A stretch of DNA of 64,000 nucleotides from the NCBI GenBank assembly GCA_009778965.1, contig WRFE01000001.1, positions 49,117 to 113,116 on the forward strand, read 5' to 3'. Source of the stretch: Candidatus Endomicrobium labiotermitis. GTDB lineage: Bacteria > Elusimicrobiota > Endomicrobiia > Endomicrobiales > Endomicrobiaceae. Position numbers and translations under genes: made by a program. Below are positions 23,644-62,961 of this stretch, piece by piece (position 1 is the stretch's first letter; each line of letters starts with the position of its first letter). The notes under the pieces were generated by a model, which saw only the letters and a list, made by a program, of their open reading frames with translations, made no database searches and was not told where the DNA came from.

Positions 23644-23698
23644 GGTGCGCTCACATCTCGCGCCCGTTCGTGACTCGCGCTCCTTATTCGTCGCGCAC
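23644..23698. repeat. H element copy 1, nested in a family-G-like repeat
   Basis: ggtgcgctcacatctcgcgcccgttcgtgactcgcgctccttattcgtcgcgcac. Confidence 0.75.
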
Positions 23699-23767
23699 TC
23701 ACCCCCGCAATGACTACAGAACATCAATCGTCTTTAATTCGTCATTCGTAATTTGTAATTGTCTTTT

Positions 23768-39720: not shown

Positions 39721-39821
39721 GTTACTATTATTGTCATTGCGGTCTCCGAGCCGCAATCTCTTTACACATAAAAACATCAGATTGCGGGTCAAGCCCGCAA
39801 TGACGACTTTATACTTTACCG

Positions 39822-42168: not shown

Positions 42169-42295
42169 CGCCCTCACCTTAATCCTCTCCTCCGTTTCAC
42201 TTCGGAGCCGGTGCGCTCACCACTCGCGCCCGCGGCAGACATGTGCTCCTTATTCGTCGCACTGCCGCCCTGACACGGGAGAGGAAAGTACTACA
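42169..42295. repeat. Family F half-unit flanking the DUF559 gene (right, inverted), interrupted by an H element
   Basis: cgccctcaccttaatcctctcc[insert]ctgacacgggagaggaaag; uninterrupted equivalent at 33388. Confidence 0.8.
42191..42269. repeat. H element copy 2, nested in a family F repeat
   Basis: tccgtttcacttcggagccggtgcgctcaccactcgcgcccgcggcagacatgtgctccttattcgtcgcactgccgcc. Confidence 0.8.
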
Positions 42296-43321: not shown

Positions 43322-43482
43322 TTTAACTCCTTATTTAAAAGACAAAGTGAAAAGTGCAGAGTGAAAAGTTAAGATAATGTGTTTTTGCCTTGCGAAAACG
43401 AGATTGCGGGTCAAGCCCGCAATGACGATAATAACCGAAACACAACATCTCCAATCTCTACTCTTCAATCTTCACTCTGTAG

Positions 43483-54664: not shown

Positions 54665-54692
54665 AGATTGCGGGTCAAGCCCGCAATGACGA
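54665..54692. repeat. Family C repeat
   Basis: gattgcgggtcaagcccgcaatgacgac. Confidence 0.75.
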
Positions 54693-54705
54693 CAACAGCA
54701 GTGTT

Positions 54706-54996: not shown

Positions 54997-55009
54997 AGTA
55001 GTATTATTA

Positions 55010-55036
55010 GATTGCGGATCAAGTCCGCAATGACGA
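55010..55036. repeat. Family C repeat
   Basis: gattgcggatcaagtccgcaatgacga. Confidence 0.7.
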
Positions 55037-55045
55037 CATAAACAG

Positions 55046-55090
55046 AACAGGAGTCTTTGCCGTGTTTGGCAAAAAACTCCTGTTTTTGTT
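55046..55090 (+). terminator. Rho-independent terminator closing the ars-linked cluster
   Basis: AACAGGAGT...AACTCCTGTT followed by TTTGTTTT. Confidence 0.75.
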
Positions 55091-55129
55091 TTATGTATTT
55101 TTTGCTAAGGATTATATTAAAAGGATAGA

Positions 55130-55187
55130 GTGCTCACCATCTCGCACCCGTCGCCAAGCTTGTGCTCCTTATTCGTCGCACGGCGAC
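55130..55187. repeat. H element copy 3
   Basis: gtgctcaccatctcgcacccgtcgccaagcttgtgctccttattcgtcgcacggcgac. Confidence 0.75.
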
Positions 55188-55224
55188 TGACGCTTGCGAC
55201 GATAAAACACAATTTTGCAAAGGA

Positions 55225-55309
55225 TTTTGAGTTTAGACAAGGAAGAAACAAGGGAAGTTTGCGCGCAAAGGCAAATGACCGAAGTTTCTGACGCTGTATA
55301 AACTCAAAA
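55225..55309. repeat. Inverted-repeat-bounded 85-bp segment
   Basis: TTTTGAGTTTA (55225-55235) and TAAACTCAAAA (55299-55309), perfect 11-bp arms. Confidence 0.6.
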
Positions 55310-55320
55310 GACACAGCAAA

Positions 55321-56474: not shown

Positions 56475-59123
56475 TTATTTTTTCATGCCGCTTTTTCTTA
56501 TAAGCTGCAAAGAAATTTTCCAGATTTCAACAAATATCAAAGGGAAAATCGACAAAAATGCCGCGATAATCCAATGCGTTAAACTTATTCCGACAAGATA
56601 AAAAATATCCGTTACGGACTCTACAAGAACTACCCCTACCATTATCGCGACTGAAAGCATAGCGCCCCAAAACAGCGGTTTGTTTGAGAACCAGCCTATT
56701 TGAAAAATAGATTTATCTATGCTTCTGACGTTAAAGACGTGCACAACGGAAGAAAGGCCTAAAATCAAAAATGCCATGGTCTGCCCGACTTCATGAGACG
56801 GCGCTATACCGCCGGCGCTGATAGTGACGAATTTACCTATATAAAAACCTACAAAAACCACAATACTGCACACTACCGACATCACGGCTATTCTAAGACC
56901 GTAACCTTCCGCAAACACGCTGCTTTTTATAGGTATAGGTTTTTTATCCATTATATCTTCTTCGGCTTTTTCCCTGCTAAGCATAAACGCAGGTATGCCG
57001 TCAGCCACGGTGTTAACAAACAATAAATGTATCGCGGTTACGGGAAGCCCCCAATTAAAGGCAAAAGCGGTAATCATTATTATTATTTCGGAAATATTAC
57101 AGGTTAAAAGAAGATAAACCGTTTTCCTTATATTGTCATAAGCTTTTCTTCCTTCTTTTACCGCCGCTACAATAGTAGAAAAATTATCATCAGTCAAAAC
57201 TATAGCCGCCGCGCTTTTGGCAACATCGGTGCCGGTTATACCCATAGCCGTGCCTACATCCGCGGCTTTTAAGGCAGGCGCGTCATTTACGCCGTCACCG
57301 GTCATGGCAACTATTTCATTATTTGCTTTCCAGGCACGGACTATTCTTATTTTATCTTCAGGGCTGACTCTCGCGTAAACAGCGTACTGCCTGACGTTTT
57401 GAGTAAGTTCTTCATCCGTTAAGACGCTAAGCTCTTCCCCTGTTATGGTTTTGTCGCCTTCTTCAAGTATTCCTATTTCAGCGGCAATAGCCGAAGCGGT
57501 TATGGCATGGTCGCCGGTTATCATTACCGTTTTTATTCCCGCTTTTTTTGCGTAAGCAACAGACTGAACGCTTTCGGGTCTTGGCGGATCTATCATTCCT
57601 ATAAGACCTACAAACTTCAAATCTCTTTCCAAATCCTCAGCGCCTAAATCTTTGGGAAGTTCATCATAATATCTTTCGGCAACGGCTATAACTCTTAACG
57701 CCTTTCCCGCAAACTCATCGTGAACTCTCATTATTTCTTCTTTAGTCGCGCCTGCCGTAATAGGAATTCTGTCCACCGCGCCTTTGGTTATTGAAATATA
57801 ACCGCCGGTATCAAGATGATGAACGGTAGTCATCAGCTTTCTTTCGGAATCAAACGGTATTTCAAAAACTCTGGGAAATTTTGCAAGCAATTCTTCTTTG
57901 CTCTTGCCTTTTTCCTGCAAAAGGCGTATTATCGCGGTTTCAGTAGGATCCCCGATAACTTTTTCCTGATCATCTTCGGTTTTTTCTATGGAAGCGTTAT
58001 TGCAAAGACTTAATATCGTGAGAAGATATTCTTCAACACTGCCAAATTCATCATCCGTATTTTTAGGTTCGTTTCCTACACCCCAAACGGCTTTTATTGT
58101 CATCTTGTTTTGCGTAAGAGTACCGGTTTTATCGGAACATATAACGGACGTATTGCCAAGTGTTTCTACCGCGTTTATTTTTCGCACCACGGCATTTCTT
58201 TTTGCCATATTCTGAATACCGTATACCAAAGTCAGCGTAACTATAATCATTAGGGTTTCAGGCACAGCGGCGACAGCCAAAGCAACCGCAAGCATAAACA
58301 TATCCATAAGCTTCTCGCCGCGCATAACGCCCATAACAAAAAATGTCACTGCCGACAATAAAGCTACAACCGTCATAAATTTGCCGATATATAAAAGCCT
58401 TTTCTGCAAAGGAGTTTTAGTTTTTTTTGTTGAACTTAAAAGTTCTGCTATCTTTCCGACTTCCGTGTCCATTCCGGTAGCGACTACAACCGCGACAGTC
58501 CTGCCGTTTGTTATAAGACAGCTTGAAAACAGCATATTCAGCCTGTCGCCTACAGGAGCGTTCTCTTCAATTTCAGCGTCAGCATCTTTTTCAACGGGAA
58601 CGCTTTCGCCGGTTAAAATCGCTTCGTCAACTTTCAAGCCCGCGGCTGTTATTATTCTCGCGTCAGCCGGAATTTTATCGCCCGCGCCAAGCACAAGTAT
58701 ATCACCCGGCACAAGCTGTTTAACATCAATCTTTTCTTTGGAACCGTTTCTTATAACAACGGTTATATCGGCATTCATTTTCTTAAGAGCTTCAAGAGCT
58801 TTTTCCGCGCCAAGCTCCTGACGTAAACTTAGTATGGAGTTTATTATGACAATGGACATAATTACTATAACTTCCGTGTAGCCGTGTCCTTCTTTTATAG
58901 CCATAAAAAGCGAAATTGCCGCGGCTATTATAAGAATTATTATAGGCAGATCTGATATGGAGCGAAGTACTTTCGCAAGAATACTTTCTTTTTTCTCTTC
59001 TTCAAATTCATTCAAGCCTTTTTGCTGCTGTATCTCGGCTACCTGAATGTCTGTAAGACCTTTGTGCGGGTCTGTAAATAAAGCTTTAAAAATGTCTTCA
59101 AGCTTTTCCTGCGTCCATTTCAT
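56475..59123 (-). CDS. P-type cation (Ca2+-type) ATPase, copy 1
   Basis: LVPGDILVLGAGDKIPADARI, ILTGESVPVEK, ICSDKTGTLTQNKM, VAMTGDGVNDAPALKAADVGTAMG. Confidence 0.93.
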   Translation of the reverse strand: MKWTQEKLEDIFKALFTDPHKGLTDIQVAEIQQQKGLNEFEEEKKESILAKVLRSISDLPIIILIIAAAISLFMAIKEGHGYTEVIVIMSIVIINSILSLRQELGAEKALEALKKMNADITVVIRNGSKEKIDVKQLVPGDILVLGAGDKIPADARIITAAGLKVDEAILTGESVPVEKDADAEIEENAPVGDRLNMLFSSCLITNGRTVAVVVATGMDTEVGKIAELLSSTKKTKTPLQKRLLYIGKFMTVVALLSAVTFFVMGVMRGEKLMDMFMLAVALAVAAVPETLMIIVTLTLVYGIQNMAKRNAVVRKINAVETLGNTSVICSDKTGTLTQNKMTIKAVWGVGNEPKNTDDEFGSVEEYLLTILSLCNNASIEKTEDDQEKVIGDPTETAIIRLLQEKGKSKEELLAKFPRVFEIPFDSERKLMTTVHHLDTGGYISITKGAVDRIPITAGATKEEIMRVHDEFAGKALRVIAVAERYYDELPKDLGAEDLERDLKFVGLIGMIDPPRPESVQSVAYAKKAGIKTVMITGDHAITASAIAAEIGILEEGDKTITGEELSVLTDEELTQNVRQYAVYARVSPEDKIRIVRAWKANNEIVAMTGDGVNDAPALKAADVGTAMGITGTDVAKSAAAIVLTDDNFSTIVAAVKEGRKAYDNIRKTVYLLLTCNISEIIIMITAFAFNWGLPVTAIHLLFVNTVADGIPAFMLSREKAEEDIMDKKPIPIKSSVFAEGYGLRIAVMSVVCSIVVFVGFYIGKFVTISAGGIAPSHEVGQTMAFLILGLSSVVHVFNVRSIDKSIFQIGWFSNKPLFWGAMLSVAIMVGVVLVESVTDIFYLVGISLTHWIIAAFLSIFPLIFVEIWKISLQLIRKSGMKK

Positions 59124-59168: not shown

Positions 59169-59312
59169 TCATGTTGAGCGAAGCAACGTAGTTGCGTAGT
59201 CGAAACATCTGCCTTTTAACTGCAGTTCCGGGGCGCTCACATCTCGCGCCCGTCGCAGACTCGTGCTCCTTATTCGTCGCACTGCGACACCTTCGACTTC
59301 GCTCAGGGTGAC
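59169..59312. repeat. Family A repeat (reverse orientation) interrupted by an H element
   Basis: gtcatgttgagcgaagcaacgtagttgcgtagtcgaaacatctgcc...accttcgacttcgctcagggtgac. Confidence 0.8.
59227..59288. repeat. H element copy 4, nested in a family A repeat
   Basis: ttccggggcgctcacatctcgcgcccgtcgcagactcgtgctccttattcgtcgcactgcgac. Confidence 0.8.
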
Positions 59313-60333: not shown

Positions 60334-62961
60334 TTACTTTGCTGCGGCGCGCAGAAAGTACTTCTCAATCTCAGCGGCAATAAGAGGAACCGTAGATAAA
60401 ACTATTACTATAACCCAATGCGTAAAACTTATCTGGGTGAGATAAAACATTTCAGCCACGGGCTTTATTAAAGCGACCGCGAACAATATTCCAAACGTAA
60501 TTATCGCGCTCCAAAACAATGACGGGTTGCTCATCCAGCCCAGTTTGAAAATTGATTTCTTTATACTTCTTACGTTAAAAACGTGTATAATCGCACAAAA
60601 ACCTATAACTAGAAATGCCATGGTTTTTCCTATTTGCGCGGACGGCTCCATACCGTTTATAGCTACAAATTTACCTATATAAAAACCGATAAGCGTTGCA
60701 ATGGTAAATATTAATGACATTACCGCCAATTTTACGCCAAAACCTTGTCCAAAAACGCTTGTGTCCGAAGATATGGGTTTTCTGTCCATTATATCGTCTT
60801 CGGGCAATTCTCTGCTTAACGCAAAGCCCGGAATACCGTTTGCCACAGTGTTAATAAACAGTAACTGCAGAGCGGTCAGCGGAACACCCCAGTTAAGAGC
60901 AAAACCTAAAATCATTACCAATATTTCTGAAATGTTAGCGCTTAAAAGAAAGTAAACCGTTTTTCTTATATTGTCATACGCCGTTCTTCCTTCTTTTACA
61001 GCTGCTACAATAGTGGCAAAATTATCATCCGTCAAAATCATTTCAGCGGCATTTTTTGAAACGTCCGTGCCTGTTATACCCATAGCCGTGCCTACATTAG
61101 CGGCTTTAAGAGCAGGCGCGTCGTTTACGCCGTCGCCGGTCATCGCCACTACTTCATCATTAGCCTGCCACGCCTTGACTATTCTTATTTTATCTTCGGG
61201 GCTGACTCTGGCGTAAACTGCATACTGTCGTATATTTTTTTCAAGTTCTTCATCGCTCATATTACTGAGCTCGGTTCCGGTTATGGTTTTGTCGCCTGAC
61301 TCAAGTATTCCTATTTCCCGCGCGATGGCTGACGCGGTAACCGCGTGGTCGCCGGTTATCATTACAGTTTTTATTCCCGCTCTTTTTGCTTCCGCAACCG
61401 CATGAATACTTTCTTCCCTGGGCGGATCTATCATACCTATAAGCCCTACAAATGTCAGGTCTTTTTCCAGCTCGTCAACGCCAATATCTTTAGGAAGCTC
61501 TTCATAATGTTTTTCGGCAACGGCTATAACCCTTAAAGCCTGTCCCGCGAACTCATCATGAATTTTCATTATTTCTTCTTTAGACACGCCTTTTTTAACC
61601 GGAATTCTGTCCACCGCGCCTTTGGTTATTGAAAGATATCCGCCTGTATCAAGATGATGCACAGTAGTCATTAATTTTCTTTCGGAATCAAACGGTATTT
61701 CAAAAACCCGCGGGTATTTTTCCATCAAATCTTTTTTATTTGTCCCTTTGTCATGCAAAAGACGTATTATCGCGGTTTCGGTAGGGTCGCCTATAGCTTT
61801 TTCTTCTTCAGCTTCTTTTTTTTCTATAACCGCGTTATTTGCGAGACTCAATATAGTAAGAAGGTGCGTTTCGGCTTCGTCAAAATTATCTTCCGCTTTT
61901 TTAGTTTCGTGTCCGGCAGCCCAAACGGCTTTTATTGTCATCTGATTCTGGGTAAGCGTACCGGTTTTGTCGGAACATATAACTGACGTGTTTCCCAAAG
62001 TTTCAACAGCGCTTATTCTGCGTACCACCGCATGCCTGGCAGCCATGTTTTGAATGCCGTAAACTAAAGTCAACGTAACTATAATCATTAGCGTTTCAGG
62101 CACAGCGGCAACAGCCAAAGCAACGGCAAGCATAAGCATATCCATAGCCTGCCCGCCGCGCATAAGACCCATACCGAAAAGCAGCACGGCAGATAATAAA
62201 GCGGCAACAGTCATTACTTTTCCTATGGCAAAAAGTCTTATTTGCAAAGGAGTTTTAGTTTTTTTCGTATTATTTAAAAGACCTGCTATTTTGCCTACTT
62301 CCGTGTCCATTCCTGTGTTTACAACCACAGCCGTTGCTCTGCCGTTTGTTATAAGACAGCTTGAAAACAGCATATTCAGCCTGTCGCCTAAAGGCGCGTT
62401 TTCATCAACTTTAGCGGCAGCGTCTTTTTCCACCGACACGCTTTCGCCGGTTAAAATCGATTCGTCCACTTTTAAAGCCGCGCTTTCTATAAGCCTTGCG
62501 TCAGCCGGAATTTTGTCGCCCGCTCCCAGCACAAGTATATCGCCGGGAACAAGCAGCCTTACGTCAACTTCTTCTTTAATGCCGTTTCTTATGACAACAG
62601 TTGTGTCCGCGTTCATTTTTCTGAGCGCTTCTAAAGCTTTTTCAGCCCCTAATTCCTGACGCAGGCTTAACACGGAATTTATTATAACAATCGCCAAAAT
62701 TACTATAGGCTCAATCCAGCCTTCATTCGTTTTTAAAGCTAAAAACCCGGAAATTACTACGGCCGACAAAAGGATTATTGTGGTAAGGTCCGACAAAGAG
62801 CGCAGTATTTTTATAAACATACTTTCTTTTTTCTCTTCGTCAAACTCGTTGAACCCTTTTTCGTCATGCAGCTCTGATACCTGATTGGTTGTAAGCCCTT
62901 TGTGGGAATCAGTGTATAAAGCTTTCAAAATGTCTTCTATTTTATCTTGCGTCCATTTCAT
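60334..62961 (-). CDS. P-type cation (Ca2+-type) ATPase, copy 2 (paralog of 56475..59123)
   Basis: Same motifs as copy 1 (ICSDKTGTLTQNQM, VAMTGDGVNDAPALKAANVGTAMG); collinear and highly similar along its length. Confidence 0.93.
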   Translation of the reverse strand: MKWTQDKIEDILKALYTDSHKGLTTNQVSELHDEKGFNEFDEEKKESMFIKILRSLSDLTTIILLSAVVISGFLALKTNEGWIEPIVILAIVIINSVLSLRQELGAEKALEALRKMNADTTVVIRNGIKEEVDVRLLVPGDILVLGAGDKIPADARLIESAALKVDESILTGESVSVEKDAAAKVDENAPLGDRLNMLFSSCLITNGRATAVVVNTGMDTEVGKIAGLLNNTKKTKTPLQIRLFAIGKVMTVAALLSAVLLFGMGLMRGGQAMDMLMLAVALAVAAVPETLMIIVTLTLVYGIQNMAARHAVVRRISAVETLGNTSVICSDKTGTLTQNQMTIKAVWAAGHETKKAEDNFDEAETHLLTILSLANNAVIEKKEAEEEKAIGDPTETAIIRLLHDKGTNKKDLMEKYPRVFEIPFDSERKLMTTVHHLDTGGYLSITKGAVDRIPVKKGVSKEEIMKIHDEFAGQALRVIAVAEKHYEELPKDIGVDELEKDLTFVGLIGMIDPPREESIHAVAEAKRAGIKTVMITGDHAVTASAIAREIGILESGDKTITGTELSNMSDEELEKNIRQYAVYARVSPEDKIRIVKAWQANDEVVAMTGDGVNDAPALKAANVGTAMGITGTDVSKNAAEMILTDDNFATIVAAVKEGRTAYDNIRKTVYFLLSANISEILVMILGFALNWGVPLTALQLLFINTVANGIPGFALSRELPEDDIMDRKPISSDTSVFGQGFGVKLAVMSLIFTIATLIGFYIGKFVAINGMEPSAQIGKTMAFLVIGFCAIIHVFNVRSIKKSIFKLGWMSNPSLFWSAIITFGILFAVALIKPVAEMFYLTQISFTHWVIVIVLSTVPLIAAEIEKYFLRAAAK

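Follow-up and report, generated by a model that had tools for sequence, protein, structure and literature searches.

A short double-hairpin sequence, which we call H, is best understood as a small non-autonomous mobile repeat of about 59–80 bp and as a new family of structured hairpin elements, a reading to which we attach a probability of roughly 0.6. The family was previously unlisted, and on our best reading it behaves like a tiny mobile element that has landed mostly behind GG, in hairpin repeats and tRNA genes. We infer mobility from presence and absence and from duplications: H occurs in some members of a host repeat and is missing from other members of the same repeat, and it is absent at one syntenic locus of a sister species.

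Four of the 22–23 copies in the genome, which is that of a termite-gut bacterium, lie in the window, that is, the whole 64,000-nt stretch that was analysed. These copies and their host features are as follows.

59230..59288, minus strand: H, the copy of the finding, with the P1 hairpin at 59252-59288 and the P2 hairpin at 59231-59251
59169..59225, minus strand: 3′ part of the family A host palindrome (small hairpin CTGCAGTTAAAAGGCAG and right arm), from aligning family A copies with and without H
59289..59312, minus strand: 5′ arm of the family A host palindrome, GTCACCCTGAGCGAAGTCGAAGGT, from the family A alignment
42210..42268, minus strand: H copy within a CCTCTCCC..GGGAGAGG repeat; the syntenic G003 locus has neither H nor the small hairpin
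42190-42207, plus strand: small hairpin CTCCGTTTCACTTCGGAG after the 42210 H copy
23644..23702, minus strand: H copy within a GTCATTGCGAGG-type repeat
55127..55187, minus strand: divergent H copy, not preceded by GG, adjoining a 110-bp dispersed repeat

Read on the minus strand with its flanking GG, the copy at 59230-59288 is 5′-GGTGTCGCAGTGCGACGAATAAGGAGCACGAGTCTGCGACGGGCGCGAGATGTGAGCGCCCCGGAA-3′. An earlier note on this DNA had described it as nested in a family A palindrome; the nesting is real, and family A copies of this genome that lack H are continuous across the point of insertion. The letters quoted there are present at 59226-59288 (the start then given, 59227, is one base late), and both of the stems it named are confirmed: GGGCGC 59231-59236 with GCGCCC 59246-59251 is P2, and GTCGCAG 59252-59258 with CTGCGAC 59282-59288 is P1. 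Searched against the 1.89 Mb genome, the 63-mer gives 22 matches, one other being identical and the weakest having an E value of 3.7e-7, and the covariance model R1 finds 23 copies. Because of these 22 genomic matches, and because the H core has four matches in the window with up to three mismatches as against 0 in 100 shuffles, H is not a chance sequence. Two paralogous P-type cation ATPase genes are neighbours in this part of the window (56475-59123 and 60334-62961), with a short-chain dehydrogenase gene in between.

Structure and covariation of H

The functional strand of H forms two adjacent hairpins with strongly covarying stems. P1 consists of GTCGCA/TGCGAC, an inner GTGC/GCAC pairing (GTGC 59263-59266 with GCAC 59279-59282 in the copy of the finding), facing GA/GA bases as tandem mismatches, a closing C-G pair, the loop GAATAA and a five-base bulge; P2 consists of GGGCGC/GCGCCC with GA..GA facing at the loop. 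This two-hairpin core of about 59 nt is usually followed by a small variable hairpin. In the alignment of the 22 copies from the genome itself, 95% of cells are paired and two-sided changes occur in 12 of the 17 pairs (0/500 shuffles). The alignment of 69 distinct sequences from several phyla, which was fitted to the model and is therefore biased towards the structure, has 97% of cells paired and two-sided changes in 14 of the 17 pairs (0/500 shuffles); it contains 231 cells with two-sided change against 52 in shuffles, and every slid version of it collapses. Variation thus backs both hairpins.

The stems vary, whereas 145 of 178 copies have GAATAA unaltered as the loop and 162 of 178 keep the GA..GA pattern of P2. 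Constant loops on freely varying stems suggest that H is recognized by a protein. The P2 loop can also carry inserts, of about 51 bases in G002 and of other kinds at L165 and L192. The G002 copies with the ~51-base insert (L148-L154) lie within AATTCCCC/GGGGTATT palindromes, and their near-identity suggests recent spread of the compound of H and insert.

Strong covariation would also be expected if H were a structured RNA with a function, either a leader or a small RNA, that is kept by selection and does not move. Such a role would suit the near-constant distance at which H precedes the tRNA in tRNA-Ser hosts of several genomes, and its position directly before start codons in some metagenome-assembled genomes (MAGs). 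However, the contexts of H have no function in common, its copy number ranges from 0 to 46 within one family of relatives, and it is present or absent within one repeat family. Wobble pairs are rarer in H stems than in the tRNA stems of the same loci (2.2% vs 4.5%, p=0.001), a weak hint that folded DNA is perhaps the selected form. We therefore regard a functional RNA as quite improbable.

Host repeats and target preference

The earlier note had recognized a second host-repeat family and concluded that H inserts into other palindromes; this was correct but understated. The 22 copies of the genome occupy at least eight different contexts, comprising at least five palindromic repeat families as well as tRNA pieces. 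Assigned by eye, the hosts are as follows.

Family A: L001, L002, L003, L007
TGTCACCCTGCGCG repeat: L004, L005, L011
TGTCACCCTGAACTTGTTTCAGGG repeat: L006
GTCATTGCGAGG repeat: L013, L015, L016
CCCTC/GGGAGAGG repeat: L014, L020, L022
tRNA-Ala piece: L008, L010, L017, three H copies in neighbouring units
tRNA-Ser piece: L009
Other repeats: L019, L021
End of an integrase-like gene: L012
Adjoining the 110-bp repeat: L018

The 110-bp dispersed repeat lies at 55213-55320 of the window, beside the divergent H copy, and four head-to-tail copies of it are found at G002:C1:435338-435768. Some H copies are located at a gene end or at ribosome-binding sites, with no obvious hairpin there. At L063-L067, L089, L092 and L100, in several MAGs, H is directly upstream of a start codon, from which a AAAGGAGG-like ribosome-binding site separates it, and a purine run ending in GG precedes it.

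Family A provides the clearest comparison of filled and empty sites, with four filled and at least ten empty copies in the genome. Empty copies read CGAAGGG|TCTGCAG or similar, and filled copies read CGAAGGG|GTCGCAG...CGCCCC|GGAACTGCAG. At the locus of the sister species syntenic with the 42210 copy (G003:C4), the repeat reads CCTCTCCCTTGCCAGG|GAGAGG, without H and without the small hairpin that follows it; a partial second repeat unit is a further difference in the immediate flank, which makes the base-exact junction one that we infer. Copies within one host family may have spread with their host and not by fresh insertion, which counts against the mobile reading. The shared insertion point of the filled family A copies L001-L003 would even fit an H that belonged to the host palindromes from the start and was deleted from most copies, but the same H is found in unrelated repeats and tRNA pieces, and at different GG positions of one host repeat (L014 and L020), so this explanation is hardly credible.

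Across all genomes, GG directly precedes H in 76% of distinct copies (135/178) against a background of 5%, and in 19 of 22 copies in the genome itself; CA precedes a further 13% (24/178). The 3′ side is mostly GGAA, GGGT or GTGT. As the GG belongs to the tRNA in tRNA hosts, and as about a quarter of copies have no GG, it reads as a feature of the target and not as part of H.

The earlier note had proposed a preference for hairpin-forming targets, to be abandoned if most copies lay in unique non-palindromic DNA. Instead, 20 of the 22 copies in the genome lie in repeats or tRNA-derived pieces, as against 174 of 300 random intergenic positions (58%) in repeats (Fisher p=0.001), a comparison that is approximate since the hosts were classed by eye and the genome data were partial (the window and ~135 kb of other loci of the genome). 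With some 58% of intergenic DNA already made up of repeats, the enrichment is about 1.6-fold. This supports the proposal in part; pairing across the insertion point, by contrast, hardly exceeds that at random intergenic positions in the genome (p=0.05) and has p=0.17 against mismatched partners from the same genome. The comparison with random positions is weak because palindromes abound in the intergenic DNA anyway; when the 148 hosts of all genomes are taken together, pairing across the site exceeds that of mismatched partners (p=0.002). Hairpin preference is part of the rule, and a GG directly 5′ and tRNA genes are the sharper preferences of H.

tRNA genes as hosts

A tRNA gene lies within ~300 bp of 47 of the 178 distinct copies. 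At many of these hosts, H has on its left the 5′ part of that tRNA, up to a GG of the D-loop, and the intact tRNA is found nearby. In most tRNA-Ser cases the start of the intact tRNA lies about 98 bases beyond that of H, and for Ala, Gln, Asn and Glu it lies further away. At L126, L220, L195 and L104, H lies in the variable or T-loop region, and L226, L236 and L224 have a repeat of the tRNA's 3′ piece next to H. The presence of a full tRNA beside H indicates that the interrupted piece is the derived one. The intact tRNA also reveals the original target, so that junctions and duplicated or inverted target pieces can be read directly, as against an internal ruler.

At two tRNA-Ser hosts (L155 and L184), a 21-nt sequence that ends at the GG junction is repeated directly and without mismatch. 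Taking all hosts together, direct repeats exceed those of mismatched partners (p=2e-11), as do inverted repeats (p=2e-4). Palindrome hosts show few direct repeats, which are clear chiefly at tRNA hosts, and this scarcity speaks against the mobile reading. Imperfect inverted copies of the tRNA piece lie between H and the intact tRNA at L133 (Asn), L177 (Gln) and L157 (Ser); inverted copies of the 5′ piece exceed those of mismatched isotypes (p=0.0015), the Ser cases being interrelated and hence not independent. Simple transposition does not explain such imperfect inverted copies.

Two loci illustrate rearrangement of tRNA genes more widely. At L319 (G000:C20, ~1500-1890), a tRNA-Pro without H carries two tandem palindromic duplications of its 3′ end together with a terminator-like stretch, and in each duplication the T-arm region recurs in inverted form. 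This is the same type of event, here in the absence of H. At L299 (G000:C103:545-615 and flanks), a tRNA-Gly gene is interrupted in the variable region; the few hundred intervening bases start and end with inverted repeats and include a second tRNA-Gly, which is intact.

Inverted and direct copies of the same tRNA piece on either side of H are what snap-back copying predicts, and H could have spread passively: replication or repair would stall at hairpins, switch template at short GG homology, and copy H and target pieces both ways with no dedicated enzyme. The existence of similar palindromic tRNA duplications without H, in the same genome, counts for passive spread and against the mobile reading, and neither Y1 transposase nor reverse transcriptase correlates fully with H, which weighs the same way. 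Passive copying nevertheless leaves unexplained the small fixed unit, and the fixed GAATAA loop and GA mismatches on freely changing stems across phyla. We take this alternative seriously, while considering it unlikely.

Our data are better accommodated by the mobile-element reading. Under it, the folded strand of H would be recognized by a protein through its conserved loops and GA mismatches, and would be inserted 3′ of GG where the target DNA is single-stranded or cruciform; hits in tRNA genes would survive only if duplication of the target leaves a working tRNA. A broader proposal, which we offer as speculative and rather unlikely, is that distant phyla share a class of folded mobile elements of which H is the best conserved. 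These would insert 3′ of GG in DNA hairpin loops, including the loops of tRNA genes, and copy part of the target forwards and backwards via a putative enzyme, with the facing GA mismatches as the recognition mark. By eye, facing GA mismatches are seen in H and in common intergenic palindromes of the window. The family A repeat (for example CCCTGAGCGAAGTCGAAGGG at 59290-59312) can likewise adopt a fold in which GA/GA mismatches face each other, and these are possibly a recognition mark that it shares with H.

Distribution, candidate enzymes and known repeats

An exact pattern scan of GTDB contigs found H in MAGs labelled Endomicrobia, Elusimicrobia, Omnitrophota, Ratteibacteria, Nitrospira and some Clostridia, or unplaced. 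The spread is patchy, at 1–51 copies per genome. Within the class, 28 of 96 genomes carry 1–46 copies each, and close relatives often have none; the complete genome G002, a single contig of 1,588,979 bp, holds about 19. A stricter scan of Nitrospira found 1–31 copies in 15 of 59 genomes, and one genome has 51. No H was found in IMG/VR by exact pattern search, or by blastn in phages, plasmids and E. coli, and no Rfam family passed the gathering and E-value thresholds over H in the window or at five H loci from several phyla.

Reverse transcriptase was rejected as the mover of H, since RVT_1 had no hit in the H-rich genomes G000-G003, G008, G023, G028 and G084-G086. A more developed candidate is the RAYT (Y1 HUH) transposase, which would move H as a REP element. 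In known REP/RAYT systems, the repeats have GT(A/G)G heads and flank the RAYT genes (PMC2817692, PMC6006769). Recognition of single-stranded hairpins would fit H, and Y1 genes occur in 17 of the 28 H-bearing but only 14 of the 68 H-free genomes of the class (Fisher p=2e-4, ignoring phylogeny and genome reduction). However, no H was found within ~1.5 kb of 20 Y1 genes, neither G000 nor the complete G002 had a Y1 hit, and GTAG heads were seen in 0 and GTGG heads in 7 of 178 copies. With a purely statistical association, no flanking H and no GTRG head, we rejected RAYT as the mover, and H as a RAYT-moved REP is improbable.

H nevertheless resembles REP/REPIN sequences in being a short, intergenic, non-coding, multicopy hairpin element, of a kind thought to move as folded single strands (PMC2817692, PMC3116915, PMC6006769). 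It differs in having no GT(A/G)G head, in combining two unlike hairpins side by side, with a fixed loop, and in the lack of an H-flanked RAYT gene at the 20 Y1 loci, some H-rich genomes having no Y1 hit. The account of Di Nocera et al. (PMC3733652) describes CGTC repeats without a dedicated transposase and REPs inserted inside other palindromes, so nesting as such is known. Like H, these GTAG- and CGTC-tagged palindromes occur in several phyla, nest in palindromes and, for the CGTC repeats, have no transposase. H has neither tag and does not show the CGTC tag at one end with a CCA-like tail that characterizes CGTC-tagged REPs; it is a double hairpin, and insertion into tRNA genes with duplication is undescribed in the part of that account considered here. 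Several window repeats resemble the CGTC repeats of that account, and the ATTGCGGGTCAAGCCCGCAATGACG repeats at 39779-39817, 43401-43439, 54665-54703 and 55009-55047 are similar to the CGTC-tagged REP superfamily. Mitochondrial double-hairpin and repetitive hairpin elements (PMC2800124) likewise have adjoining hairpins scattered through intergenic DNA and RNA genes, a likeness to H in architecture and distribution. A double hairpin with a fixed loop, multi-phylum spread and tRNA hosts has no description in the literature searched, most subscription papers being outside its scope.

The small dispersed repeats of cyanobacteria, the subject of work by Elhai in 2008, are reportedly very small (21–27 nt), confined to cyanobacteria and structured, with compensatory changes, and are said to nest in themselves and in other repeats. 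H is likewise structured, nested, and present or absent within copies of a host repeat, but its core is 59 nt long and its hosts are non-cyanobacterial and belong to several phyla.

How very small structured repeats move is poorly understood, common as they are among bacteria; with H, there is a fixed unit that can be searched for across several phyla. It could help to find the mover of CGTC-like repeats, to which no enzyme has been assigned, and could explain the origin of complex nested intergenic palindromes.
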